Assembly: GCF_030409835.1 (NCBI RefSeq)
Contig: NZ_JAUFQO010000012.1
Location: 1-64,000, forward strand
DNA: 64,000 nucleotides
DNA from: Lutimonas halocynthiae
GTDB lineage: Bacteria > Bacteroidota > Bacteroidia > Flavobacteriales > Flavobacteriaceae
Direction of reading: 5' to 3'
Shown here piece after piece: positions 26,601 to 43,647 of the stretch (position 1 is the stretch's first letter; every line of letters starts with the position of its first letter). The notes below the pieces were generated by a model, which had not been told where the DNA came from, ran no database searches, and was given only the letters and a program-made list of their open reading frames with translations. The position numbers and the translations under genes were made by a program.

Positions 26601-26626
26601 CTGGAAAGAAAAAGAAATTAATTAAG

Positions 26627-26653
26627 TCAATTTTGTCAACCCCTCATGATGAA
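26627..26653 (+). promoter_or_regulatory. Conserved leader box, copy A (with mini-ORF start)
   Basis: This 27-base segment matches 32048-32074 at 26 positions, including the uninterrupted tcaacccctcatgatgaa. The last eight bases, ATGATGAA, begin a mini-ORF in both copies. Both copies lie 35-40 bases after a TATATTT-type promoter box. Role unknown. Confidence 0.7.
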
Positions 26654-26678
26654 TTACTTGAATCTTCTCACGAAGTAA
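26646..26678 (+). CDS. Possible 10-residue leader peptide
   Basis: ATGATGAAT... encodes MMNYLNLLTK and stops at TAA. The stop codon lies inside a perfect 8-bp hairpin (gaagtaaa 26672-26679 with tttacttc 26684-26691, loop gtca). The initiation region is the conserved leader box. It may be a regulatory leader peptide; translation is not proven. Confidence 0.35.
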   Translation: MMNYLNLLTK

Positions 26679-26810
26679 AGTCATTTACTTCTTCATAAAT
26701 TCATTTATTTTTTGGGGATTGCCAGAATTTTCAAATCGAATTATAGTTAAGAAATATCCTCTTAATCTATGAAATTTGTCAAAATGATTGTTATGATTCT
26801 ATATCGACAT

Positions 26811-29800
26811 ATGAAGAAAGTATTGAATTCGTCTATCTCCGGTTCGAAAATCATAAGTCTATTCTTTTTTTTAATATCTCTGTCACTATTTGGGCAAGTA
26901 GAATTTACTAAAATACCACTTGACAATCAATTGGTTGCAAGAAATGGAGTTACAGGTATTGTTGAATTTGAAGGTACAGTTTCAAATTTAACACCTTATA
27001 ATGATATCAAAATAGTTAGATATAGAGATGGGATTAATAATGGTGAATTCACTTATGAGTTGAATAATCCTGGAGGTATATCAAACTTTGCATCTAATAG
27101 CGACATTACTATTGTTGCCGAAACGAAAAATTATTCCTTTGAAATCTATGGTCTGACTGATGACCCTCCTTTTCCTAATCCGAGTATACCGGATGTATTG
27201 ATTGCAACTATCTCAAACGTTGTAGCAGGAGATGTTTATATTATTCAGGGGCAGTCGAATGCAGTAGCAAATATAAGAGATGGCGTGGGACCCCAAAGCA
27301 ACTTTATTCGGGTTTATGCCAGTGGGACAGAAACATTCTCGAAGTTGCAAACCCAAGACGTTTGGTCAATTGCCAACGTGAATTCAGGAAGTGAAGTATT
27401 AGGAAATACTGGGCAGTGGGGAGCTAAAATAGCTAGTTTAATTATTGATAAATACGATATTCCAGTAGCAATTTTTAATGGAGCCCGTGGAGGTAAATTT
27501 ATTAACTATTTTACAAAAGACTATGACGGTATTTATGAGTCAACTCCGGCTACTAATAACTACTTTAGATTGAAATACAGGTTGGATAGAACTGGTTTAG
27601 GAAGTGCGGTAAAGGCAATATTTTGGTCTCAGGGCGAGAATGTGAGTCAAACAGTAAGTGATTATAAATTAGCTTTTGAGGACTTAAGAACTAGTTGGCT
27701 TAGTGATTTTTCTGGAGTGAAGCAATTTTACATTTTTCAAATTAGCAATGGTTGTAATGCTTATTACAATACGAACACCCTATTATTACACGTTACTAAG
27801 GAGGCACAGAGGCAGTTGGCCGAAGAGAATAATGATATCCAAATTATGAATACAGACGGTCTAGAACAGTATTTGGACGGAGGCAGCTTAGGGTTTTGCC
27901 ATTTTGTATATAATAATGGTTACGAAGGTTTTGGAGAAAGAATATTTCCGCTTGTTGATTCATATTTTTATACAGACACCCCGGTTGAACCCGAATATTT
28001 ATCTCCGAATATAACAGATGCCTACTTAATTGATGACGTAACTTTAGTATTGAATACAGATGCAGAAAAACTATATATTGATAATTCCACTGAAGCCATT
28101 AAGAATTTTGTCTTAGACGGAAATGGCACCATAATGGACGCCTATACTTCTGGAAATCAGATTGTTTTTACTTTGTCAGAATATCCTGGAGTCAATGCCA
28201 AAATTTCAAATATAGGAGCATTACCTGGAGTCAATGATAATCTTATTACCAATGCTACTAATGATGTTGTTGGGCCAGAAATATTGTCATTTTATGAATA
28301 CTCAATTAGGAGTGATTTAATAACAATATGGAATAATAATGCTTGGTCTAATGGTTCTCCAACTGATTCAAAAAATACCATTATTGATGATGATTATAAT
28401 GGAATTAATGCTGATTTAATTACAAAAGATTTGAAAGTTAATGCAGGTAGCACATTAAATTATAATACAAATTCTAATAATAGTGTTATTGTAAATGGGA
28501 ATATGGTCATAAATGGGAATTTTATTGTGGGCGATATTGAATCATTGATTATTGATGACGTTAATGCTGACGTAGAAATTAGTGGTAGCTACCGGAAAAT
28601 TGAAAAATCAACGGAGTTAACGAATAACTTTGACGTGACATATTGGTCGTCGTCAGTAGAAAACACTAATATCAACGATGTTTTTATAACAAAAGGAGTT
28701 AATAGTAGCCGAATATTCTATTATGATTTGTTTAAGGAAAACCCTTTATATACAGGTGATTACATTGATTACAGACATTGGCATAACGCACTAGGTTCGG
28801 ATCAAATGACTCCTGGTCAAGGATTTTCTGTTGACGGCCCTGAAGATGCAACGTCAGGTACTCAACTGGAAGTTGAGTTTACTGGTAAGCCAAATTACAA
28901 GGACATTTCTATTCCAATAGGTACAGCGCCAAGTGTGTTAGATGATAATGATAGGACAAATTTAATTGGGAACCCTTACCCATCGGCCATTAGTGCAGAT
29001 CAATTTATATCTGCAAATTCTTCTATTAAAAACGGAACCCTTTATTTATGGTCGCATGGTACTGAATACGGAGGCGATCAGTATGATCCTGATGATTATT
29101 TAACGTATAATTCACTCGGAGGAAATTTGAGCGACATTGAATTGCCCTATTTCATAGCTTCAGGACAAGGCTTTATGATTTTAACCGATGTGTCAAATGG
29201 AACTATTAATTTTGAAAATTCTATGCAGGTTACAAATAATAATACAGAGTTCTATAAATCTAGAAAGAAGAAGAAAGGGCCTTCTGTGAACGATGTGACA
29301 AAACGGTTATGGCTTAAACTATTAAAGAACAATGCTGCCAGAAAGGAAATTTTAATTGGATATTCAGATGGTGGCTCTGAATCAGTCGATTACGGACTCG
29401 ACGGAAAATTAATCAACACCGAGGCATCACTTACTTTTTATTCTTTAATAGACAATGAGAAATATGCTATACAAGGATTAGGGAGAAGGGTAGTTGGGAA
29501 GCCTGTAAAATTAGGGTTTAGCTCCCTTGAAAGCGGGAATTTTAAGTTGGGAATAGCAAAAACTCAGGGGTTCGGACAGAATAAACGAATCTTTCTAAAG
29601 GATAGAAACACTGGTTCGATACATGATTTGAGTAAGTCAGATTACGAGTTTTTCATAAGTAAAGCAGGAGACTTTCCAGATCGTTTTAGTATTCGATTTG
29701 TTGGTGGAAACGAAAATTACGGTGATTATATCAAAAATGTTTTGAAGGTCACTAATAATTCAAATGGTTTTAAATTTAATGGACCCCACGACGTTAAAGA

Positions 29801-29963
29801 AATAAAGATATATGATATCTATGGAAGGGTTATTTATCATTCATTTCCAAATAATAATAGTTTTAATATTCGACTGAATAAAGTTAAAAAAGGGACCATT
29901 GTAATTATTCGATCAATAATGAAAAATGGCCATATTCATACCCATAAAATGATTAAAAAGTAG
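26811..29963 (+). CDS. T9SS surface protein with sialate O-acetylesterase-like (SGNH) domain
   Basis: The frame opens at 26769, but I prefer the ATG at 26811, which gives a signal peptide ending ISLSLFGQ; the longer form puts a charged 14-residue extension in front. The product is about 1050 residues. An SGNH carbohydrate-esterase domain shows IIQGQSNA (~residues 144-151), the ARGG loop and FWSQGEN (~270-276), with a possible catalytic His in the later CHFVYNNGYEGFGE. Then comes a large module shared with the giant protein at 36577-43647: IEKSTxL, VTYWSS, NPYPxAI, LW(S/T)HGTE and QGFMI. It ends in a T9SS-like domain (IKIYDIYGR...). It may trim O-acetyl groups from the polymer acylated by the neighbouring MBOAT systems; that is inference. 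Confidence 0.85.
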   Translation: MKKVLNSSISGSKIISLFFFLISLSLFGQVEFTKIPLDNQLVARNGVTGIVEFEGTVSNLTPYNDIKIVRYRDGINNGEFTYELNNPGGISNFASNSDITIVAETKNYSFEIYGLTDDPPFPNPSIPDVLIATISNVVAGDVYIIQGQSNAVANIRDGVGPQSNFIRVYASGTETFSKLQTQDVWSIANVNSGSEVLGNTGQWGAKIASLIIDKYDIPVAIFNGARGGKFINYFTKDYDGIYESTPATNNYFRLKYRLDRTGLGSAVKAIFWSQGENVSQTVSDYKLAFEDLRTSWLSDFSGVKQFYIFQISNGCNAYYNTNTLLLHVTKEAQRQLAEENNDIQIMNTDGLEQYLDGGSLGFCHFVYNNGYEGFGERIFPLVDSYFYTDTPVEPEYLSPNITDAYLIDDVTLVLNTDAEKLYIDNSTEAIKNFVLDGNGTIMDAYTSGNQIVFTLSEYPGVNAKISNIGALPGVNDNLITNATNDVVGPEILSFYEYSIRSDLITIWNNNAWSNGSPTDSKNTIIDDDYNGINADLITKDLKVNAGSTLNYNTNSNNSVIVNGNMVINGNFIVGDIESLIIDDVNADVEISGSYRKIEKSTELTNNFDVTYWSSSVENTNINDVFITKGVNSSRIFYYDLFKENPLYTGDYIDYRHWHNALGSDQMTPGQGFSVDGPEDATSGTQLEVEFTGKPNYKDISIPIGTAPSVLDDNDRTNLIGNPYPSAISADQFISANSSIKNGTLYLWSHGTEYGGDQYDPDDYLTYNSLGGNLSDIELPYFIASGQGFMILTDVSNGTINFENSMQVTNNNTEFYKSRKKKKGPSVNDVTKRLWLKLLKNNAARKEILIGYSDGGSESVDYGLDGKLINTEASLTFYSLIDNEKYAIQGLGRRVVGKPVKLGFSSLESGNFKLGIAKTQGFGQNKRIFLKDRNTGSIHDLSKSDYEFFISKAGDFPDRFSIRFVGGNENYGDYIKNVLKVTNNSNGFKFNGPHDVKEIKIYDIYGRVIYHSFPNNNSFNIRLNKVKKGTIVIIRSIMKNGHIHTHKMIKK

Positions 29964-31139: not shown

Positions 31140-31895
31140 ATGGATTTTACTGTAAAAAAATACACGGAGTTATTAGATACTCTTATTGAACAAAATTACT
31201 CATTTCAGACATTTGATGCCTATCTGAAAAAAGCCAATGATAAGGTGGTTATGCTTCGTCATGATGTTGATGATTTGCCAGGCCATTCTTTAAGATTTGC
31301 AAAGATTCAGCATGAAAGAGGCGTTAAGGGCGTGTATTATTTCAGAGCTGTTCCGCAAAGTTGGGATGTAGCTATTATAAAAGAAATTGCCTCTTTAGGA
31401 CATGAAGTAGGATATCATTATGAGACCATGGATACAGCTGGTGGTAATATAGACATGGCATGGGATCAATTCAAGCAACATTTGGAGGACTTAAGGAAAT
31501 TGGTTCCTGTAAGCACCATTTGTATGCATGGGAGCCCAAGATCAAAGTTTGATAATAAAGAAATATGGAAGAAATATGATTATAAGACATTGAACCTCAT
31601 CGGTGAACCTTATTATGATATCGATTTTGATAAAGTTTTATATTTTACCGATACGGGACGAAGATGGGACGGATTCAAAGTAAGTGTTAGGGATAAAGTA
31701 AAATCTAATTATGATTATACTTTTCACGCGACTGATGATATTATTTCTGCTCTAAAAAAATCTACATTACCAAATCAGTTTATGTTTAATTTTCACCCAC
31801 AACGCTGGCATGATAATAATATTCAGTGGACGAAAGAACTCATTATTCAAAACGCTAAGAATGTCGTTAAAAGAGTTTTCTTTGTTTCAAAATAG
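31140..31895 (+). CDS. Divergent polysaccharide deacetylase (NodB-fold) family protein
   Basis: A 251-residue protein with a NodB-like opening, MLRHDVDD (~residues 37-44), then LGHEVGYHYETMD and a C-terminal FHPQRWH that fit the metal-binding and catalytic positions of carbohydrate esterase family 4 relatives. It has no signal peptide, so it would act in the cytoplasm, for example on a nucleotide- or lipid-linked sugar. The typical HSxxH motif is not obvious, so activity is uncertain. It lies between DUF354 and the sugar transferase gene. Confidence 0.75.
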   Translation: MDFTVKKYTELLDTLIEQNYSFQTFDAYLKKANDKVVMLRHDVDDLPGHSLRFAKIQHERGVKGVYYFRAVPQSWDVAIIKEIASLGHEVGYHYETMDTAGGNIDMAWDQFKQHLEDLRKLVPVSTICMHGSPRSKFDNKEIWKKYDYKTLNLIGEPYYDIDFDKVLYFTDTGRRWDGFKVSVRDKVKSNYDYTFHATDDIISALKKSTLPNQFMFNFHPQRWHDNNIQWTKELIIQNAKNVVKRVFFVSK

Positions 31896-32009: not shown

Positions 32010-32017
32010 TATATTTA
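32010..32017 (+). promoter_or_regulatory. Candidate -7 promoter box before the HTH/sugar transferase gene
   Basis: tatattta agrees with TAnnTTTG except for the last base. It has the same position relative to the conserved leader box as the better promoter at 26593-26600, which supports it. Confidence 0.4.
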
Positions 32018-32047
32018 CCGCTTAGAAAAAGAATTTAAATAATATCT

Positions 32048-32074
32048 TCAATTTTATCAACCCCTCATGATGAA
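32048..32074 (+). promoter_or_regulatory. Conserved leader box, copy B (with mini-ORF start)
   Basis: This matches 26627-26653 at 26 of 27 positions (g to a at the ninth base). Its aacccct (32059-32065) can pair with aggggtt (32117-32123). The latter can alternatively pair, as ttttagggg (32113-32121), with cccctaaaa (32184-32192) just before the downstream start codon. Two mutually exclusive folds are therefore possible. Confidence 0.65.
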
Positions 32075-32204
32075 AATTGGTTACTTATCAATAGTACGAA
32101 TTACCAAAATTATTTTAGGGGTTATTATATTGAAATTAGAACAGGGAAATATTGTTCTTAAGGAAGAGTATTTTCATGTTAATCCCCTAAAACAATTGCT
32201 ATGA
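32067..32204 (+). CDS. 45-residue mini-ORF overlapping the sugar transferase start (ATGA)
   Basis: The frame starts ATGATGAAA within the conserved leader box and is open for 45 codons. It begins MMKIGYLSIVRITK, has a hydrophobic IILGVIIL stretch and ends NPLKQLL. Its TGA (32202-32204) overlaps the ATG (32201) of the sugar transferase gene, the arrangement used for translational coupling. It matches no family I know. It could be a small protein, a coupling leader peptide or the remnant of an upstream extension. Random occurrence is possible, but the conserved start and exact ATGA junction argue for translation. Confidence 0.5.
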   Translation: MMKIGYLSIVRITKIILGVIILKLEQGNIVLKEEYFHVNPLKQLL

Positions 32205-33703
32205 TAACAAAATTACAAAAGCCTACTTTTTTTGATGATCTTAAAGGGCCAAGTTACCGCAGTAACTTTCTGAGTCCCATTAATAGATCGAATGGATTCC
32301 CTCAAACAAAAAAGATTTTCACAAAAGATGAGAAAGTCCGAATTGTTATTGATGGGCAGAGTAATGTTATTCCAATTGAAAAATTGTGCCAGAAAGAAGG
32401 TATTTCGATTGGGACATTTAATAAATGGACAAAAGAATTTTTATCGGCATCAGCTTTAAATGCAAAAGAAGGAGTTGAAACTGATAAAAGAGCCGCTGAT
32501 GAGAAGTTTCGTGTTGTAATAGAAGGAAAATCCGGAACAACAAGTATAGCTGAAATATGCAGGCGCGAAAATATAACACAAGAGATATTTTTAAGTTGGT
32601 GTGAAGATTTCTTATTGGTAAGAAATAGGAATTCAATCATCCATAAATTAAATAACCCGCTTTATCAGAAAAACAGAGAGCTCATCTCTAATTTTTCAAG
32701 CCTTGCGGTGGTTAAATATTGTGAAAACTATGTAAATATTAGTTCTGCCAAATCTTTGGTTGTTTTGAAGTCAAATAGTCGTCGTCTTGAGGATGTTCAA
32801 GACCTGAACAATGTGGTGAGTCTGCAAAAAATAAATGATGTAAGATTTGTCAACAAATATTTGGAAAAAGTTAACGGAAAACTTGAGAACGGTGGAATCA
32901 TGGTTGGTTGTTTTGAGACTTTTACTGCAAGAAGACAGAGAATGTCTATTAATAAAATTCCGGTATTGGGAAGTATTTATTTTGCAGCAGAGTTTTTGAT
33001 TAAACGAATTCTTCCAAAAGTGTCCTTCACAAAGAAGTATTATTTTGACATTACTAAAGGTAATGATAGGCTGCTTTCAAAAGCAGAGGGTTTAGGTCGT
33101 TTGGTAAGTTGCGGATTTAGTATTATGGATTATAAAACCATTGACGGAATCTTATATTTTGTAGTCAAAAAAGTAAGAGAGCCGTATTTTGATGAAAGTC
33201 CAAGTTACGGCCCAGTATATAAAATGCCACGATTAGGTAAGAATGGAAAAATGATTGGAGTGTACAAGTTCCGAACAATGCACCCTTATAGCGAGTATTT
33301 ACAAGATTATATTGTTAACGCTTATGGTTATGCAGAAACAGGAAAGCCTGCCAATGATTTTAGAATCCCTAAATGGGGTAAATTTATGAGAAGATTGTGG
33401 CTTGATGAAATACCACAGTTATTTAATGTATTGAAAGGAGAATTAAAACTTGTTGGAGTGAGACCGGTTTCGGAAAGGTATTTTCAGGATATCCCTAAGG
33501 AAATGCAGAAATTGCGATTGACTCAGGTTCCGGGTTGTGTTCCTCCTTATGTTGCTTTAAATAGAGAAGGTAACGTTATGAGTGTTCTTCAATCTGAAAA
33601 AGAATATCTGGAAGAAAAGATAAGAAATCCTTATACTACTGATATGAGGTATTTTTTAAATGCGATATTTAACATTGTATTTAAGCATAAACGGAGTGCT
33701 TAA
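32201..33703 (+). CDS. Initiating sugar transferase fused to two transposase-type helix-turn-helix modules
   Basis: A 500-residue protein with three parts. Residues ~38-83 and ~99-139 are two similar HTH modules of the IS3/IS911 OrfA (HTH_Tnp_1) type (KVRIVIDG...IEKLCQKEGIS...FNKW and KFRVVIEG...IAEICRRENIT...FLSW). Residues ~160-325 look like a decayed methyltransferase-like region (LENGGIMVGCFET, LGRLVSCGFSIMD). Residues ~330-500 are a bacterial sugar transferase catalytic domain: YKFRTMHPYSEYLQ, FMRRLWLDEIPQLFNVLKGE, LVGVRPVSERYF. The last part should transfer a sugar-phosphate to undecaprenyl phosphate. The usual membrane hairpin is not obvious; residues 252-275 are the nearest candidate. 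The HTH part suggests a nucleic-acid-binding, possibly autoregulatory function. A strong terminator follows. Confidence 0.88.
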   Translation: MITKLQKPTFFDDLKGPSYRSNFLSPINRSNGFPQTKKIFTKDEKVRIVIDGQSNVIPIEKLCQKEGISIGTFNKWTKEFLSASALNAKEGVETDKRAADEKFRVVIEGKSGTTSIAEICRRENITQEIFLSWCEDFLLVRNRNSIIHKLNNPLYQKNRELISNFSSLAVVKYCENYVNISSAKSLVVLKSNSRRLEDVQDLNNVVSLQKINDVRFVNKYLEKVNGKLENGGIMVGCFETFTARRQRMSINKIPVLGSIYFAAEFLIKRILPKVSFTKKYYFDITKGNDRLLSKAEGLGRLVSCGFSIMDYKTIDGILYFVVKKVREPYFDESPSYGPVYKMPRLGKNGKMIGVYKFRTMHPYSEYLQDYIVNAYGYAETGKPANDFRIPKWGKFMRRLWLDEIPQLFNVLKGELKLVGVRPVSERYFQDIPKEMQKLRLTQVPGCVPPYVALNREGNVMSVLQSEKEYLEEKIRNPYTTDMRYFLNAIFNIVFKHKRSA

Positions 33704-33943: not shown

Positions 33944-36325
33944 ATGGCTATCGGACATTTTTCAGACAAAAGTTTTGATAATACGAAAAACTTTAAACAG
34001 GTTATTGAGAAGTATGCGACTCACTATAGGTGGTTTATCGCAAGCGTTTTATTTTTTGGAATTGTGACGTTTATTACTGTCCAAACCATGACTCCAAAAT
34101 ACTTTATAGGTGCATCTATTCTAATCAAGGAAATTGAGCAAGGTAAATCCATTTCAGATTTGTCTTCTTTTGAAGACCTTGGCCTCTTTGGAAGTGAAGA
34201 CAGATCTTTGGAAAATGAAATCCAGATATTAAAATCACGAAATTTAATGCACAATGTAGTAAAGGAGCTTAAATTGAACGTTCTCTATTATATAGAAGAC
34301 TCACCATATGATAAGGAGCAATATCCTAACTTTCCGTTACTTCTCACTATTCACTCAAGTAATTTTCCTATTGATGACATAAAAACTGAATTTAGAATTA
34401 AGATAATCTCAGCTACAGAATTTGAATTTGTTGATTTTGATGACAATTCTTTAACTGAAAAAACCTTTAAGGAAAAATTTCAAGCAAATTTAGGTAATGA
34501 TGATTTTTCGAATGAAAGTAGAATAAGCATCAATCTTAACCCTGATTATGACAATGAGCTGATTGGAGAAACCGTCTTAGTAAAAATGTTTCCTGTCGAT
34601 AGAGCAATCGATTACTTTATGACAACAATAGGCATTAAACCAATTAATGAAAAGCTATCTCGGGTTTTAAATATCTCTTTGGAGGAATCTATAAAGGAAA
34701 AAGGTATTGCCATAATCAATAATTTAATTGAGCAATACAATGCGGATGGGATGAATGATAAGAATTTAGTAGCTCAGGCTACAACCGATTTCTTGGATTT
34801 GAGATTGGAGTTGATTTCTAACGAATTGATAACAATAGAAGGCACAGCAGAACAGTTTAAGTCTAAAAATCAAATGCTTGATTCTGAAAAAGGAGCTAAT
34901 TATTATCTTGAGTCATCTTCTTTGAATGAAAGAGATTTAGTAGCAGCTAATACACAGATGCAACTCATTAGTTATATGCTTGAAGAGCTAGATAAAAGAG
35001 GGAGAAGTGAATTGTTGCCTGGTAATATTGGTTTGTCTGATGTGGGCATTATCAATTTAATCTCTGAGTATAATGAACTTGTATTGCAACGAAATAGAGT
35101 TATGAAAAGTTCTAGTGTTCGCAATCCCATAATTGTTGGAATAGATTCTCAACTTGAGGTTTTAAAGAAAAATTTGAGTAGTAGTTTGAGTTCCTTGAAA
35201 TCATCTTCTGAAATTCAGATTAGAGCCCTAAATACACAAGGAGGCAAAATAAGTTCAAGAATTGCATCTGTTCCAAGAACTGAAAGAGAATTTAAGGATA
35301 TAGTACGCCAACAGGAAACTAAAAATGCATTGTATCTTTTTTTATTACAAAAAAGAGAAGAGTCAATTCTATCAAATGCTGTCAATGTTGAAAAAGCCAA
35401 GGTTATAGATAGGGCATACAGTAATGGACTTCCTGTATATCCTAAGAAAGGAATCTTATATGTGGCTTCGATTTTATTTGGGTTTTTATTGCCAGTTGGA
35501 ATAATTTATATAAAGAATCTTCTCGATACAAAAGTGCATGATGAAAATGACATCTCAAGATTGGGAATTCCATATTTGGGAGATGTGCCGCAAACATCTG
35601 TAAAGAGTGATCACTTTATTAAGGATATTGATAATTCGAGTGTAGCTGAGGCATTCCGCTATATTCGAACAAATATTAACTTTATGCTTGACAATAAGGA
35701 AGCATGTAAGACAGTATTTGTAACTTCAACTCAGAGTGAAGAGGGAAAAACTTTTACTGCTATTAATTTAGCTTCTTCGTTAGCTATTTCCGGAAAGAAA
35801 ACTTTACTGATAGGCATGGATTTGAGAGCTCCAAAGATTAATAAATATTTGGATCTTGAAGATTTATTAGGTGTCACAAATTATATAAAAAATGAGAATT
35901 TGTCATTGAAGGAAATCACTGAAAAATATACATCTATTCATCAATTGCATTTGATAAATTCTGGAGATATTCCGCCAAATCCTGTAGAATTGCTGATGAG
36001 TAAGAGAGTTGATCAAATGTTTGAAGAGGCAAAGAAAGTATATGATTATATTATTGTAGATACTGCTCCGGTTGGAATGGTTACGGATACGATGCAAATT
36101 AGCAAGTATGCGGATTTAACTATATATGTTGTGAAATCAAATTTCTTAGATAAAAGGATGCTTCATATTCCAGAGAAATTATTCAAAGAGAAAAAGCTCA
36201 TGAATATGGCTATGTTGATTAATGGGACTGATCATAGCAGAGGTGCCTATGGCTATGGCTATGGATACGGTAAAAATAAAAAGAAAAATATATTACAAAA
36301 ATATGCTGTTAAATTGGGTTTTTAA
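33944..36325 (+). CDS. wzc: Wzc-type polysaccharide co-polymerase / BY-kinase
   Basis: A 793-residue inner-membrane protein. A Wzz domain with a first membrane helix (~residues 27-48) is followed by a long periplasmic coiled-coil region, PRTEREF just before the second membrane helix (~505-525), then a cytoplasmic tyrosine kinase. The kinase has Walker A SEEGKTFTA (~597-605), Walker A' LLIGMDLRAPK, and Walker B YIIVDTAP. The tail ends in a tyrosine cluster (GAYGYGYGYGK), the autophosphorylation site. It controls chain length and assembly together with Wzx/Wzy. Wza is not adjacent. It stands alone between two terminators. Confidence 0.95.
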   Translation: MAIGHFSDKSFDNTKNFKQVIEKYATHYRWFIASVLFFGIVTFITVQTMTPKYFIGASILIKEIEQGKSISDLSSFEDLGLFGSEDRSLENEIQILKSRNLMHNVVKELKLNVLYYIEDSPYDKEQYPNFPLLLTIHSSNFPIDDIKTEFRIKIISATEFEFVDFDDNSLTEKTFKEKFQANLGNDDFSNESRISINLNPDYDNELIGETVLVKMFPVDRAIDYFMTTIGIKPINEKLSRVLNISLEESIKEKGIAIINNLIEQYNADGMNDKNLVAQATTDFLDLRLELISNELITIEGTAEQFKSKNQMLDSEKGANYYLESSSLNERDLVAANTQMQLISYMLEELDKRGRSELLPGNIGLSDVGIINLISEYNELVLQRNRVMKSSSVRNPIIVGIDSQLEVLKKNLSSSLSSLKSSSEIQIRALNTQGGKISSRIASVPRTEREFKDIVRQQETKNALYLFLLQKREESILSNAVNVEKAKVIDRAYSNGLPVYPKKGILYVASILFGFLLPVGIIYIKNLLDTKVHDENDISRLGIPYLGDVPQTSVKSDHFIKDIDNSSVAEAFRYIRTNINFMLDNKEACKTVFVTSTQSEEGKTFTAINLASSLAISGKKTLLIGMDLRAPKINKYLDLEDLLGVTNYIKNENLSLKEITEKYTSIHQLHLINSGDIPPNPVELLMSKRVDQMFEEAKKVYDYIIVDTAPVGMVTDTMQISKYADLTIYVVKSNFLDKRMLHIPEKLFKEKKLMNMAMLINGTDHSRGAYGYGYGYGKNKKKNILQKYAVKLGF

Positions 36326-36576: not shown

Positions 36577-39500
36577 ATGATGAAAAAGTTACTCTTAATT
36601 TTAATTATTGTCCTCTCCTCTTCCTTTGCCTTTGGTCAGGAAATTACCCTGTCTACAACTTCAGCAAGTGCTACATGGTCTCCAAGAAGTATTGCTAATT
36701 CAGGGACAGATCTTGTTTGGGAAGCTAGCAATGCGCTGATTGGAACCTTAACCCAAACCGCGAATGTGCCTACCTTTGATTTTAGTTCAAATGATGGAAG
36801 TCCAATTGCTATATCAGTTACAAGTGCAGATAATTTTGCAGGATTAACGAGATTTCAAGTATATACTTTAGAGGTTACCGCTATTGACTTGACGGATGCC
36901 ACGCAACTTGAAAATATTCATATAAGTAATAATCAAATTTCCGCTTTAGATATAAGCACCTTAGGAAACTTAGAGTTGTTAATAGCGAGTACTAATAATT
37001 TGTCTAGTCTTGATATTTCGAACAACAGTAATCTAACAAGATTGGAATTGGCTAGTAATTTGTTAACCTCTACGATTCTTGATGCGCTTCTTGTACAAGT
37101 GGATGTTTTTAATGAAACTGATGGGATTCTTACACTATCTGGAAATCAAGGTTTAACGCAAGCTGTTGCAACAAATTACAATAGTTTAATCGGTAAAGGC
37201 TGGACGATTGATGTTCCAGTTCCAGGCCCACCAGTTACTGCGACTATTACGTTGACTACTACTAGTTCTAGCGATGTTTGGGCTCCGAGAAGTATTACAA
37301 ATACCGGTAATGCATTTACATGGGAAGCTACAAATGCTTTGATTGGTACTCAAACCCAAATTGCGAATGTTCCTACTTTTGATTTTAGCGCAAATGATGG
37401 CAGTCCAATCAGTGTTACAATTACAAGTAATGATGGTTTTACAGGATTAACAAGATTTCAAGCATATACTTTAAATATAACTGACTTAGATCTTTCTGAA
37501 GCTATCGAATTACAGAATATTCATATTGGTAACAATCAATTAACAAGTATTGATATAAGTTCACTGCCTGATTTAGATTTATTTAGAGCTGGGACAAATG
37601 GAATTACATCTTTGGATATACAAAATAACCCTCTTTTAACCAGAGTTGAGATGGAGGCAAATTTATTGCCATCCGCAGAGTTAAATGGATTAATAAATCA
37701 ATTAGATGCTTTTGGACAAACAGGAGGAATATTAACCGTTTCTGGAAATCAAGGGATTACAGAAGATGCACAACCAGGCTATGATAATTTGATTACAGAT
37801 GGATGGTCAATTGATGTGCCAGCTCCAGGACCACCTGTTATTGCAACAATGACAATAACCACAACTTCTACTAGTGCTTCATGGGGTCCAAGAAGTATAA
37901 CCAATACAGGTAATGCATTTACTTGGGAGGCAACAAATGCCTTGATTGGAACTCAAACTCAGGTGGCTAATTCTCCGAGTTTTGATTTCAGTGCTAATGA
38001 TGGAACTCCAATTAATATTACTATAACAAGTAACGATGGTTTTGTAGGCCTTACAAGGTTTCAAATGTATACATTGGATATTACTGAGATTGATGCCACT
38101 GCAGCTGTTGCTTTGGATAATTTTCATGTTCAAGCCAATAATATTTCAAATATTGACATCAGTACATTGTCAGATTTAACTTTTTTCCGTGCTTCAGGAA
38201 ATAATATTGCAAGCCTTGATATTTCAAATAATTCTAATTTAAACAGATTAGAAGTCGACAATAATGTGTTGACTTCAACAGAATTAGATGCAATAGTAAA
38301 TCAATTGGATGCATTTGGTGAAACTGACGGTATTTTGAACCTTGCAGGAAATCAAGGGATAACAGAATCAGCACAACCTGGATATGATAATTTGATTGCA
38401 GATGGTTGGACAATTGACGTTGATGCACCAGGACCGCCTGTTATTGCAACGATTTCAATTACAACAACATCTACGAGTAGCGCATGGTTTCCAAGAAGTG
38501 TTACAAACACGGGTAATGCTTTTGTATGGGAAGCTACTAATGCTGTGATTGGTACACTTACACAAACAGCTAATGTGCCAACTTTTGATTTTAGTGGTAA
38601 TGATGGAACACCAATCTCTATTACTGTAACAAGTAATGATGGTTTTTCAGGGTTGACAAGATTCCAGGTTTATACATTGGATATAACTGCAATTGATGCG
38701 TCAGCTGCTACGCAGTTAGATAACTTCCATATACAGTCAAATAATATATCTGCTATTGACATCAGTACACTGACCAATGTAACTTTCTTCAGAGCTTCTG
38801 ACAATAATGTATCTAGTTTGGATATTTCCAATAATACCTTGCTGAACAGATTGGAGATAACAAATAATAATTTGAGTTCAACTGAGCTTGATGCTATTGT
38901 GAATCAATTGGACGCATTTGGTGAAACAGATGGTATTTTAAATATAGCCGGTAATCAAGGTATCACAGAGTCTGCCCAACCTGGATATGACAATTTAATT
39001 ACTGATGGCTGGACTATTGATGTCGATGCTCCAGGCCCTCCAGTTATTGCAACAATGTCGATTACAACAACTTCAACTAGTAATGCATGGTCACCAAGAA
39101 GTGTAACAAATACGGGTAATGCCTTTGTATGGGAAGCAACAAATGCTTTGATCGGTACATTGACACAGACATCAAATAGTCCTACATTTGACTTTAGTGC
39201 CAATGATGGAAGTCCTATTAGCATTACTGTAACAAGTAATGATGGGTTCTCAGGTTTAACTAGATTTCAAGTCTATACATTAGATATAACGGCTATTGAT
39301 GCAACTGCAGCGACAGAATTAGGAAATTTTCATGTTCAAAGTAATAATATATCAGCAATAGATATTAGCACAATGTCAAACCTCACTTTTTTCAGAGGTC
39401 TTGACAATAACATAGCTACTTTGGATATTTCTAATAATTCTTTGCTCACAAGAGTTGAAGTAGAAAATAACAATTTGACTTCTTCAGAACTTGATGCGAT

Positions 39501-42500
39501 TGTGAATCAATTGGATACTTTTGATTTAAATGATGGGATACTAAATATTTCTGGAAATGAAGGAATTACTGAATCAGCGCAACCAGCTTATGATAATTTG
39601 ATTAATAAGGGATGGGCAATTGATGTCGACGCACCTGGACCTCCAGTTATTGCCACTATGTCTATTACAACAACTTCAACAAGTAATGCCTGGTCACCAA
39701 GAAGTGTTACAAATACAGGTAATGCACTAGTATGGGAGGCAACAAACGCCTTGATAGGAACTTTGACACAAACAGCTAATGTTCCAACTTTTGATTTTAG
39801 TGCTAATAACGGAAGCCCTATAAGTATTACTGTAACATCAAATGATGGGTTAACCGGATTGACAAGGTTTCAGATCTATACTTTAGATATTACTGCAGCA
39901 GATTTGACCCAAGCAACAAATTTAGAGAATCTGCATATTGGGAACAACCAAATTTCTAATATTGACTTAACACCATTGAATAATTTGAATTTCTTTAGAG
40001 CAGGGACTAATAATTTAACTGCTTTAGACATATCTGGCAATAGTTTATTGACTCGTCTTGAATTATTGGATAACGCCATGACTACTGCTGAATTAGATGC
40101 AATTGTAAATCAACTTGATACTTTTGGACTATTGGATGGAATTCTTGATATAGGCGGGAATGAAGATTTATCCTTTGCGGCTCAGCCTGCTTTTGATAAT
40201 TTAATTTTGAACGGCTGGACAATTGATGTAGATGCTCCAGTAGCTCCTGTATTGACAACGATGTCAATTACTACAATCTCAACAAGTAATGCTTGGTCAC
40301 CAAGAAGTGTCTCAAATACGGGGAATACATTGGTATGGGAAGCAACAAATGCTTTGATAGGTACTTTGACTCAAACGGCTAATGTGCCAACATTTGATTT
40401 TAGTGCTAATAATGGAACTCCAATAAGTATCACTGTAACAAGTGACGATGGATTTGGAGGATTGACCAGATTTCAGGTTTACACCCTTGATATTACTAAC
40501 ATTGATGTAAGTGAAGCTACTTCATTATCAAATTTCCATATTCAGAGTAATGCTATTTCTGATGTGGACATTAGTGCCTTGAATAATCTTACTTTTTTCA
40601 GAGCCAATGACAATAACCTTACAGCCTTGGATGTGTCGAATAATAGCGTTCTGACAAGACTTGAATTAACTGGTAATAATTTAACTACTGATGAACTTGA
40701 TGCAATTGTGAACCAATTAGATGTGTTTGGAGAGTTAGATGGTATACTTGATATCGCTGGAAATGAGTCTTTATCATTTGCTGCTCAACCTTCCTTCGAT
40801 AATTTGGAAACAAAAGGTTGGACTATAGATGTAGATGCTCCGACAGCTCCAGTTTTCAATACCATTACTATGTCTACAGTTTCTAATAGCAATGCATGGT
40901 CGCCTAGATCGGTTACAAATTCAGGTAATGTTTTAGTTTGGGAAGCATCAAATGCTTTAATTGGAACCTTGACTGAAACTTCAAATGTTCCAACATTTGA
41001 TTTTAGTGCTAATAATGGAAGTCCCATTAGCATCACCGTAACCAGTGATGATGGATTTGGAGGGCTTACAAGATTTCAAGTTTACTCTCTGGAAATAACG
41101 GATATTGATGCGACTGAGGCCGTGGCATTAAGTAATTTCCATATTCAGAATAATGATATTGCAACTATTGACATCAGTACATTGTCAGATTTGAGCTTTT
41201 TTAGAGCGAATCTGAATAATTTAACGGTGTTGGATATTTCAAATAATAGTGCTTTAAACAGATTAGAGTTAACAGACAATTCCCTAACTTCAAATACACT
41301 TGATGCCATCGTCAATCAGTTAGATGTTTTCGGTGAATTCGATGGAATATTGACTATTGAAAATAATCTGGGGCTGACATTAGCTGCCCAACCTTCTTAT
41401 GATAATCTGATTGCAAAAGGATGGTCAATTGATGTAGGTGTTCCAACGGATAATGAAATTATGATCAGTCAATACTACCACGGTTTTGGTGGAAACGACC
41501 AATGGCTAGAAGTCACGAATATTTCGGGTGAAGCAATAGCGGCCGGAAGGTTTTATCTCGCTTTATTTGAAGATGATATTGCTAGATCAGGAATCATAGA
41601 AACAGCCTCTCCTTCTCAGAATACAGTTATCCCAGCTATGGCAGCTGGTCAGACTTTATTGTTTAGAAATGTTGCTGCCGTATCACCTTCTGCAGGGAAT
41701 ATTGGTGGTGCTACGCAAATAAATTCTCCGGTATGTACTTTTACAGGTGATGATGTCATTTTAATATCGACTACCAATAACAGTTCTTCTTATAATAACA
41801 GGGTTGAAATTATTGGTGATGTCTCTGCAAGTCCGGGAACGGCTCCTGATGGTTGGGGTGCAACTTCTTCTTTTATAAAAGGTGGTTGTTCATCGGAATT
41901 ACCTCATCTGGATTTTGATGAGTCTGATTGGAGTTTTATATTACTGTCTGATGTTGATGCAGCTATTGCTAATACGAATTTAGCTTTAGGTACACAGGTA
42001 GTTGGGCCTACAATTTATAACGGTACTACTTGGTCTAATTTACAACCTGATCAATCTAGAACGGCAACTATTGCCAGTTCATTTACTGGGGCTCCTTCGA
42101 ATTTTATTTCTTGTAATTTGACAATTAATAATGGAGTAAACGTTGTTTTTGACTCTAATGGAGCGACAAGCTTTAGTATAGTGATCTATGGTGATTTTGT
42201 CAATAGTGGAAGTTTAACTATTGGTGATACCGAGTCGCTTGTAGTTTATAACCCCAATGCAAATATTGGAGTAATAACTAAAATTGAAAAATCTACACCT
42301 CTTGATAACATCATGGATGTGACTTATTGGTCATCCCCGGTCATAGGATCTCAAATTAACACAATTTTTGCAGGTGTAGATCCAACCAGATTATTTGATT
42401 ACCGAGCTGGTGATGTGAATCCGGATTATGGAGCTGCTTCTAATTATAAGTATTGGTGGTTGTCTTCAGGGAGTATGGATATCGCGAAAGGGTATACGGC

Positions 42501-43647
42501 ACCTGGTGCATCGACTGGTGTTCAAACTTTGACATTTACAGGTGTTCCTCATAATGGTCCTTTTACAAAGAATGTTTTCTTTAGTGGAACAATCGATACA
42601 GGGACGGCAAATGAAAACTTTAATTTACTTGGAAACCCTTACCCAGCAGCTATTGATATGCAGAGAATCTTAATAGATAATACGACAGTGAATGAAATAG
42701 CTTTATGGACGCATGGAACAGAAGTTGATCCAGATACTGGCGAATACTTTGATGGTGATTATATATTTTATTCTGCTGCAGGATCAACAGATGGCGTAAC
42801 AAAGAATATTGCCTCATCTCAAGGTTTTATGATTAGAACTGTTGCTTTTGGTGGTATCAATTTCGAAGACAGTTATAAATTGATAGGAGATAATGATCAG
42901 TTTTATAAATCAAATAATTCTAAGAAGAAGGAGTCTGTTGCAAAAGCTGATGAGGAAGATAAGGTATGGTTACGCATGGTTCATGGAACTGAAAAGAATG
43001 ATATCTTGATTGCTTTTGTTGAAGGTGCTACGGACGGATACGATATGTATTATGATGCCTTAGGTAATTTATATGATTCTAATATTAGTCTTTTAGAAAA
43101 GAATGCAAAATTTTATTCTAAGATTAATAGTGACAAATATGTAATTCAAGGTTTAAGCGAATTCGGAGCTTCTAAGAATATTGATCTTGGATTTGATACT
43201 AAAAAAAGTGGTTGGTTCAAAATCAGTATTAATAAAAAACAGGGAGCACTTAGCGAAGCGGATATTTATTTAGTTGATACGTATTTGAACATTAAACATG
43301 ATTTGAATAAATCAACTTACGAATTTGAAGCTGATAAGTCTGGAGAATATTCTGACAGGTTTAGATTAGAGTTTGTAAATAAAAATTATGATTTAGGACC
43401 TGAAGAAATTATTGACGCCAATAGATTTACAATTACTAATGAATTTGATATCATGAGTGTGGTATCAGGAAAAACTGTGAATGAAATTAAAGTATATGAT
43501 CTTTTAGGTAGAATGATTATTCAAGAAGTTCCTAAAAAATCTTCATTCCAATTAAATACTAGTAATGTAAGAATTGGAACAGTTATGTTGATCGAGGCGA
43601 GATTAGAAGATGGAAGTATGATCAATACAAAATCAATTAAGTATTAG
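36577..43647 (+). CDS. Giant T9SS surface protein with eight ~200-residue leucine-rich repeats and a lamin-tail domain
   Basis: A 2356-residue protein with signal peptide MMKKLLLILIIVLSSSFAFG. Residues ~22-1620 hold eight repeats of about 200 residues, each opening with an ITTTSTSxAWSPRSVTNTG-like strand region and LVWEATNALIGTLTQ, continuing with a short leucine-rich segment (LDISNNSxLxRLExxxN) and closing with DELDAIVNQLD and GWxIDVDAPGPP. From ~1628 comes a lamin-tail-like domain (MISQYYHGFGGNDQWLEV). The C-terminal ~600 residues share a module with the esterase protein at 26811-29963 (IEKSTPL, VTYWSSP, NPYPAAI, LWTHGTE, QGFMI) and end in a T9SS-like strand domain (IKVYDLLGRMI...). Likely a surface adhesin or matrix protein. 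Confidence 0.9.
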   Translation: MMKKLLLILIIVLSSSFAFGQEITLSTTSASATWSPRSIANSGTDLVWEASNALIGTLTQTANVPTFDFSSNDGSPIAISVTSADNFAGLTRFQVYTLEVTAIDLTDATQLENIHISNNQISALDISTLGNLELLIASTNNLSSLDISNNSNLTRLELASNLLTSTILDALLVQVDVFNETDGILTLSGNQGLTQAVATNYNSLIGKGWTIDVPVPGPPVTATITLTTTSSSDVWAPRSITNTGNAFTWEATNALIGTQTQIANVPTFDFSANDGSPISVTITSNDGFTGLTRFQAYTLNITDLDLSEAIELQNIHIGNNQLTSIDISSLPDLDLFRAGTNGITSLDIQNNPLLTRVEMEANLLPSAELNGLINQLDAFGQTGGILTVSGNQGITEDAQPGYDNLITDGWSIDVPAPGPPVIATMTITTTSTSASWGPRSITNTGNAFTWEATNALIGTQTQVANSPSFDFSANDGTPINITITSNDGFVGLTRFQMYTLDITEIDATAAVALDNFHVQANNISNIDISTLSDLTFFRASGNNIASLDISNNSNLNRLEVDNNVLTSTELDAIVNQLDAFGETDGILNLAGNQGITESAQPGYDNLIADGWTIDVDAPGPPVIATISITTTSTSSAWFPRSVTNTGNAFVWEATNAVIGTLTQTANVPTFDFSGNDGTPISITVTSNDGFSGLTRFQVYTLDITAIDASAATQLDNFHIQSNNISAIDISTLTNVTFFRASDNNVSSLDISNNTLLNRLEITNNNLSSTELDAIVNQLDAFGETDGILNIAGNQGITESAQPGYDNLITDGWTIDVDAPGPPVIATMSITTTSTSNAWSPRSVTNTGNAFVWEATNALIGTLTQTSNSPTFDFSANDGSPISITVTSNDGFSGLTRFQVYTLDITAIDATAATELGNFHVQSNNISAIDISTMSNLTFFRGLDNNIATLDISNNSLLTRVEVENNNLTSSELDAIVNQLDTFDLNDGILNISGNEGITESAQPAYDNLINKGWAIDVDAPGPPVIATMSITTTSTSNAWSPRSVTNTGNALVWEATNALIGTLTQTANVPTFDFSANNGSPISITVTSNDGLTGLTRFQIYTLDITAADLTQATNLENLHIGNNQISNIDLTPLNNLNFFRAGTNNLTALDISGNSLLTRLELLDNAMTTAELDAIVNQLDTFGLLDGILDIGGNEDLSFAAQPAFDNLILNGWTIDVDAPVAPVLTTMSITTISTSNAWSPRSVSNTGNTLVWEATNALIGTLTQTANVPTFDFSANNGTPISITVTSDDGFGGLTRFQVYTLDITNIDVSEATSLSNFHIQSNAISDVDISALNNLTFFRANDNNLTALDVSNNSVLTRLELTGNNLTTDELDAIVNQLDVFGELDGILDIAGNESLSFAAQPSFDNLETKGWTIDVDAPTAPVFNTITMSTVSNSNAWSPRSVTNSGNVLVWEASNALIGTLTETSNVPTFDFSANNGSPISITVTSDDGFGGLTRFQVYSLEITDIDATEAVALSNFHIQNNDIATIDISTLSDLSFFRANLNNLTVLDISNNSALNRLELTDNSLTSNTLDAIVNQLDVFGEFDGILTIENNLGLTLAAQPSYDNLIAKGWSIDVGVPTDNEIMISQYYHGFGGNDQWLEVTNISGEAIAAGRFYLALFEDDIARSGIIETASPSQNTVIPAMAAGQTLLFRNVAAVSPSAGNIGGATQINSPVCTFTGDDVILISTTNNSSSYNNRVEIIGDVSASPGTAPDGWGATSSFIKGGCSSELPHLDFDESDWSFILLSDVDAAIANTNLALGTQVVGPTIYNGTTWSNLQPDQSRTATIASSFTGAPSNFISCNLTINNGVNVVFDSNGATSFSIVIYGDFVNSGSLTIGDTESLVVYNPNANIGVITKIEKSTPLDNIMDVTYWSSPVIGSQINTIFAGVDPTRLFDYRAGDVNPDYGAASNYKYWWLSSGSMDIAKGYTAPGASTGVQTLTFTGVPHNGPFTKNVFFSGTIDTGTANENFNLLGNPYPAAIDMQRILIDNTTVNEIALWTHGTEVDPDTGEYFDGDYIFYSAAGSTDGVTKNIASSQGFMIRTVAFGGINFEDSYKLIGDNDQFYKSNNSKKKESVAKADEEDKVWLRMVHGTEKNDILIAFVEGATDGYDMYYDALGNLYDSNISLLEKNAKFYSKINSDKYVIQGLSEFGASKNIDLGFDTKKSGWFKISINKKQGALSEADIYLVDTYLNIKHDLNKSTYEFEADKSGEYSDRFRLEFVNKNYDLGPEEIIDANRFTITNEFDIMSVVSGKTVNEIKVYDLLGRMIIQEVPKKSSFQLNTSNVRIGTVMLIEARLEDGSMINTKSIKY
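36640..41440 (+). repeat. Eight ~600-bp tandem coding repeats
   Basis: Repeat openings fall about 600 bp apart, for example near 37855, 38455, 39058, 39658 and 40261. DNA divergence between copies is moderate, with many synonymous changes, so the array is older than the near-identical repeats at 1-1930. Confidence 0.85.

Follow-up and report, generated by a model that had tools for sequence, protein, structure and literature searches.

The open reading frame at 32201-33703 (plus strand) of the window, the 64,000-nucleotide stretch of Lutimonas halocynthiae DNA analysed here, encodes a 500-residue initiating sugar-phosphate transferase fused to helix-turn-helix (HTH) modules related to those of IS3-family OrfA proteins. 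Comparison of its ten distinct orthologues indicates that this HTH and PGT architecture, seen in a small group of flavobacteria, is real and that selection has maintained the modules within a single clade. Both parts, the initiating PGT and the IS3-type HTH, are of known kinds. We tentatively propose, at rather less than even confidence, that the initiating sugar transferase is a trigger enzyme that would bind its own leader as well as a second leader at 26.6 kb, the state of the enzyme thereby being coupled to expression of the locus.

Domain architecture

HTH module 1, of IS3 OrfA type, spans residues ~38-89 (32312-32467) and module 2 residues ~95-140 (32483-32620), both, like the domains that follow them, on the plus strand. 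The modules match HTH_Tnp_1 (PF01527), a feature of IS3-family OrfA proteins, and AF2 predicts a trihelical unit in each case; no PDB sequence matched the HTH pair at 0.01. A shortened, class I methyltransferase-like middle domain follows (residues ~160-327, 32678-33181), which is without a Pfam match and is common to HTH-less relatives in the phylum. The C-terminal part is a monotopic PGT catalytic domain (residues 336-500, 33206-33700) scoring 87 bits against PF02397, for which the curated cut-off is 27; the match begins at profile position 35. All ten orthologues match PF02397 at 0.1, and the pair D402-E403, which we take to be the catalytic pair of the monotopic PGT superfamily, is invariant in all ten rows. 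In the AF2 model the catalytic region mostly has pLDDT below 50.

The transmembrane bundle of large PGTs is absent: no 19-residue hydropathy window exceeds 1.6 in any of the ten orthologues, the best value in the window protein being 1.41 at residues 253-271, within the middle domain, and PF13727 gave no match at E ≤ 1 in the frame. Nor does hydropathy show a strongly hydrophobic helix immediately N-terminal to the catalytic core, where monotopic PGTs would have a re-entrant membrane helix. The initial annotation had read two IS3/IS911 OrfA-type HTH units and an initiating sugar transferase domain in this frame, naming structure prediction, a survey of relatives and conservation as checks; both parts are confirmed by Pfam, the HTH folds are predicted by AF2, the architecture recurs in the ten orthologues, and the modules are conserved where the linker between them is not.

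Distribution of HTH and HTH-less forms

After removal of duplicates, eight of the ten distinct HTH enzymes carry two modules and two (L021 and L008) carry one, which in both aligns to module 2, the type retained in single-module relatives. The gene is present in five of 22 genus genomes at 1e-20, in all five with HTH. Wider sampling gave matches in six of 299 family genomes at 1e-30 (three with HTH), in eight of 395 order genomes at 1e-15 (two with HTH), and at 26 places in 25 of 395 phylum genomes at 1e-12. Three of these last are HTH enzymes and one is an OrfA-like frame lying at the end of a locus; in the remaining 22 the match starts no earlier than profile position 37, so that the HTH module is missing. 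A single-sequence scan of genome contigs, for which two of the six search peptides lay inside the HTHs, gave seven loci, each with at least one module. Within this sampling, HTH enzymes come from the window's own genus, a second genus of the same family (G119), the MAG records L015, L018 and L020, and G776, a genome of another family of the phylum; the G776 sequence is identical to L021, and mis-binning is possible. L018 and L020 are two different HTH-enzyme loci on contigs of one MAG (DAOUPQ01) and appear to be paralogues. Among plasmid records, 684 match the enzyme, none across more than 80% of its length.

Among the relatives without HTH, open frames run to 247-405 residues; eight longer ones (L084, L086-L088, L090, L091, L093 and L095, from other phylum genomes) have 648-684 residues and an N-terminus that by eye is hydrophobic and of membrane type. 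Since relatives thus have either short frames or membrane-type N-termini, the N-terminus of the enzyme core is exchangeable.

Conservation and selection

Mean pairwise identity among the eight two-module proteins rises and falls along the chain: 28% for residues 1-38, 47% for HTH1, 11% for the linker, 59% for HTH2, 31% for residues 140-205, 68% for the middle domain and 83% for the catalytic domain. By the NG86 method, dN/dS is 0.11-0.23 for HTH2 in five pairs and 0.23-0.77 for HTH1 in the four pairs with finite dS. The conserved positions mostly belong to the fold core (V106, I119, C120, I125, F130, W133), and exposed recognition-helix positions, for example 71, 72 and 74 in the first module and 128, 129, 132 and 135 in the second, vary among orthologues. 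Such variability speaks against one common target. The N-terminal 155 residues have a pI of at least 8.7 in seven of the ten HTH enzymes; that of L015 is acidic (pI 5.3), yet its leader element core is identical to the window's. Net charge is negative for module 2 in 9/10 proteins, for module 1 in 5/8 and for the OrfA stretches in 6/8.

A conserved fold core beneath a variable recognition face is what would be expected if the modules no longer bound nucleic acid and served instead as a scaffold, for dimerisation, control of catalysis or partner binding, in place of a membrane-type N-terminus. Elsewhere the same enzyme core is preceded by a hydrophobic N-terminus or by nothing, and parallels exist: in the available parts of PMC10942596 and PMC12802240, the large monoPGT WbaP is described as dimeric, with an accessory domain that binds nucleotides, and EpsZ as controlled by a partner. 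A scaffold would, however, leave unexplained the co-occurring leader described below, its second copy and the basic N-terminus of seven of the ten members, and we regard it as a serious but on balance unlikely explanation.

Origin of the HTH modules

The HTH pair alone matched 12 of the 299 family genomes: three with the HTH enzyme, eight with an OrfA of 113-123 residues, and one (L033) with a short stretch containing two stops. Identity of the sister-genome OrfA proteins to the HTH pair is 28-48%, and 41-48% in OrfA matches of 43-57 residues. An rve integrase frame adjoins the OrfA gene in all eight sister loci; in L024 and L029 this frame is fragmented, and in L026 it runs off the end of the locus. 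Each module averages 42% identity to the eight OrfA HTHs, the best single values being 63% (module 1) and 51% (module 2), and the modules are 41% identical to one another; a 43-column tree is compatible with either copying of the module or a second capture. At the window gene itself IS context is absent: no OrfB integrase gene adjoins it, its neighbours are polysaccharide genes, and the window genome has no other match to the HTH pair at 0.001. Descent of the modules from OrfA of Bacteroidota IS3 elements is supported by the matches to OrfA proteins of IS3-type elements with their rve neighbours, in keeping with the earlier proposal that the pair represents domesticated transposase DNA.

Genomic surroundings

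The gene lies within a polysaccharide locus (~6957-36325) that includes sugar-nucleotide, flippase-like, glycosyltransferase, MBOAT and asparagine-synthase-like genes. Upstream is a 251-residue protein (31140-31895, plus strand), deacetylase-like by eye and without a Pfam match at 1e-5, of which a homologue is present in the same stretch in eight of nine orthologous loci, a count on which it bears that the L017 contig starts only 518 bases upstream of the gene. The homologue adjoins the gene in L015, L016, L021 and L071 and is 2 to 4.3 kb off in L018, L019, L020 and L069. Downstream, a Wzc-like protein (GNVR + AAA_31; 33944-36325, plus strand) is conserved in seven of nine orthologous loci, the exceptions being L018, where the locus ends too early, and L071, which has none. 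Beyond it, 36577-43647 encodes a protein of 2356 residues that contains long internal repeats and matches nothing in Pfam at 1e-5; repeats related to these come after Wzc in L017/L074 and L069.

A leader element that accompanies the enzyme

The leader (32010-32200, plus strand) contains a promoter-like TATATTTAC at 32010-32018, assigned by eye, followed by GAAAAAGAAT and a conserved element, TTCAATTTTATCAACCCCTCATGATGAAAATTG, at 32047-32079. The orthologue 5' regions have in common, with variation, a TATxTTT-like promoter box, GAAAAAGAA and TTTTATCnnCCCCTCATGATGAAA, and the element sits between the promoter-like box and the start codon. A sequence-only model, R1, was built from nine leaders; it scores the window element at 33.3 bits (E 1.4e-7 in the genome), this copy having been among the sequences used to build it. 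At the thresholds used only one other copy was found in the genome, at 26624-26656 (plus strand). It precedes another gene of the same polysaccharide locus, that for a 1064-residue SASA-domain protein (26769-29963, plus strand), and among the genomes examined is present only in the window genome. A third pattern match in this genome is coding.

R1 matches upstream of eight of the ten HTH-enzyme genes at E ≤ 1.8e-6, all eight being in its training set. For L021 the E-value is 0.25, the element being visible by eye, and for L008, a one-module enzyme from another genus, there is no match. No match at E ≤ 0.005 was found at 29 HTH-less loci, where the best values, 0.0091 and 0.067, both fall on the strand opposite the enzyme gene. 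Across the 22 genus genomes, with 150 of 550-2651 candidates scored in each, R1 gave E ≤ 2.1e-5 in all five with the gene and nothing at 0.01 in the 17 without it (best 0.016 in G303, inside a coding frame).

Several further candidates were set aside. Two possible leader copies in G299 (C83 and C359; E 0.004 and 0.008) are located in intergenic repeats; the repeat arrays L121 and L122 of that genome have inverted segments, AAGGAGAGAA ... TTCTCTCCTT. A family-wide pattern search gave, among the matches listed, seven single matches outside the window genome and nine for the reversed control, and the former are therefore taken as chance. In the genus pattern search, 7 of 11 matches resemble a coding start at 81.5 kb of the window genome, the one match that was checked. 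Derivation of the leader from IS3 ends was rejected, there being no likeness to the ends of sister IS3 elements: both G255 element ends read TGT..CTTCAG..TGAACT, with no CCCC in the 60 bases shown, as is also true of the G150 copies. A small upstream ORF was likewise discarded; several leaders contain a frame that reads like SILSTPHDE or ends over the start codon, but by eye these frames have no start codon in common. At gathering scores, Rfam models matched nothing in the window.

A leader is transmitted together with the gene that follows it, and this one may be the target of a different factor. Joint inheritance would account for the co-occurrence if the element were unrelated to the HTHs and were instead the target of, for example, a NusG paralogue of the UpxY/RfaH type. 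The genome does have a second NusG-family protein (L124; G000 contig C1, 223360-223899, minus strand), UpxY/RfaH-like by context, beside genes that by eye are Ugd-like and Wza-like and constitute a separate polysaccharide locus. R1 nevertheless finds no copy in the C1 stretch, and the second copy of the element precedes a different gene of the HTH-enzyme locus itself, so that service to another factor strikes us as improbable, though to be taken seriously. This explanation and the protein scaffold are the chief rivals of the trigger enzyme.

Leader structure

The C-rich part of the element is complementary to AGGGGTT at 32117-32123 (plus strand), an equally long match occurring in 9 of 1000 shuffles. 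In four of ten leaders the match between this segment and the leader sequence downstream of it exceeds that of shuffled controls (W32 9, L015 2, L007 14 and L017 38 of 1000), with no excess in the other six. A stem is predicted in all ten leaders with the element and none in L008; five of the ten single stems beat 95% of shuffles and five do not. The leader fold z is -2.07. A fixed hairpin around the C-rich segment shows no covariation (0 pairs changed on both sides in nine rows) and a version slid by 3 scores higher, and this hairpin was not used as evidence of structure. Separately, TTTTAGGGG (32113-32121) can pair over nine bases with CCCCTAAAA (32184-32192) just 5' of the start codon.

These features would suit an N-terminus that recognises the leader transcript and so regulates translation, with pairing of the C-rich segment to the downstream G-run and of TTTTAGGGG to CCCCTAAAA, as would the position of the element between promoter-like box and start codon. 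The six leaders without excess complementarity, the five unexceptional stems and the lack of in-register covariation count against such a role, and the HTH_Tnp_1 domains known to us are DNA binders; we consider it distinctly improbable. That the N-terminus is a neutral leftover of a read-through IS insertion, or reflects a wrong start codon, can be dismissed almost entirely: HTH-less relatives do exist, but all ten genes start with ATG, the first residues are alike in most rows, and conserved modules around an unconserved linker, with low HTH2 dN/dS, do not fit neutral sequence.

A possible trigger enzyme

In the trigger-enzyme proposal, the enzyme would, we infer, catalyse formation of the first lipid-linked sugar at the inner membrane face. 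The part of its population not engaged at the membrane would use the tandem HTHs, substituting for a dimeric OrfA, to bind nucleic acid, the putative targets being its own leader (32010-32200) and, in the window genome, the 26.6-kb leader. Through a presumed switch, and with a presumed direction of control, the state of the enzyme would thus be coupled to expression of its own gene and of one more gene of the locus.

In favour of a trigger enzyme we count the predicted HTH folds, the conserved islands around a free linker, kinship with IS3 OrfA without IS context, the co-occurring leader element, its second copy in the locus and the basic N-terminus in 7/10. Against it we count the inheritance of the leader with its gene, the variable recognition helices, negative module charge, the acidic L015 N-terminus, a leader unlike IS3 ends, the R1 results for L008 and L021, a second copy in one genome and a hairpin without covariation. 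The idea of the initial annotation that the HTH pair controls the polysaccharide locus is suggestive only: both leaders that it named share the element, found nowhere else in the genome at the thresholds used and co-occurring with the HTH enzyme, and the varying recognition-helix positions weigh against it. No sign was noticed of the processed N-terminal fragment that the annotation also envisaged. As given in the available portion of PMC3299598, the OrfA of IS2 is reported as a repressor of the promoter that drives it and IS911 OrfA is said to be without repressor function, the latter counting against our proposal; the accessible part of PMC2909936 identifies the IS911 HTH as its specific DNA-binding domain. 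The fuller history, in which the enzyme captured one and then two IS DNA-binding modules and came to regulate the locus in which it lies, acting on a leader element dedicated to it, we offer with greater reserve, as a scenario about one-third likely.

Relation to known systems

The window enzyme shares with monotopic PGTs (PF02397; PglC, WcaJ, WbaP) a catalytic domain with the invariant DE pair and VGVRPVS, and a polysaccharide locus with Wzc-like, flippase-like and glycosyltransferase genes; it differs in having neither PF13727 nor a strongly hydrophobic segment, and in its shortened methyltransferase-like domain and HTHs. With IS3-family OrfA proteins (IS2, IS911) it shares the trihelical HTH and HTH_Tnp_1, but OrfB does not adjoin, the module is doubled in eight of ten members and it is fused to an enzyme. 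PutA and BirA likewise combine an enzyme and a DNA-binding domain in a single chain, although the enzyme class and HTH type are different, and DNA binding by the window enzyme is putative. Both are treated as enzyme-regulators in the part of PMC6978683 available. In the EpsZ-EpsW system of Myxococcus control also acts at the initiating PGT but, in the available text of PMC12802240, through a separate response regulator after translation, whereas the extra domain here is an HTH in cis; the same text states that regulatory domains, receiver domains among them, may be present in small monoPGTs. No description of an HTH-PGT fusion was found in the literature searched; the family survey of O'Toole et al. 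2021, outside that search, may mention such fusions.

The accessible text of PMC12802240 presents as an open question how cells adjust the start of surface-polysaccharide synthesis to a limited supply of undecaprenyl phosphate and sugar nucleotides. Where control at the initiating PGT is described, there and in the available part of PMC10942596, it works through phosphorylation, sensing of nucleotides or a partner protein. With a head of DNA-binding type built into an initiating PGT, feedback passing directly from enzyme to gene could be tested, and an IS-derived domain would have been recruited by a metabolic enzyme. On the fuller history outlined above, surface-glycan synthesis would have a trigger enzyme at its committed step.
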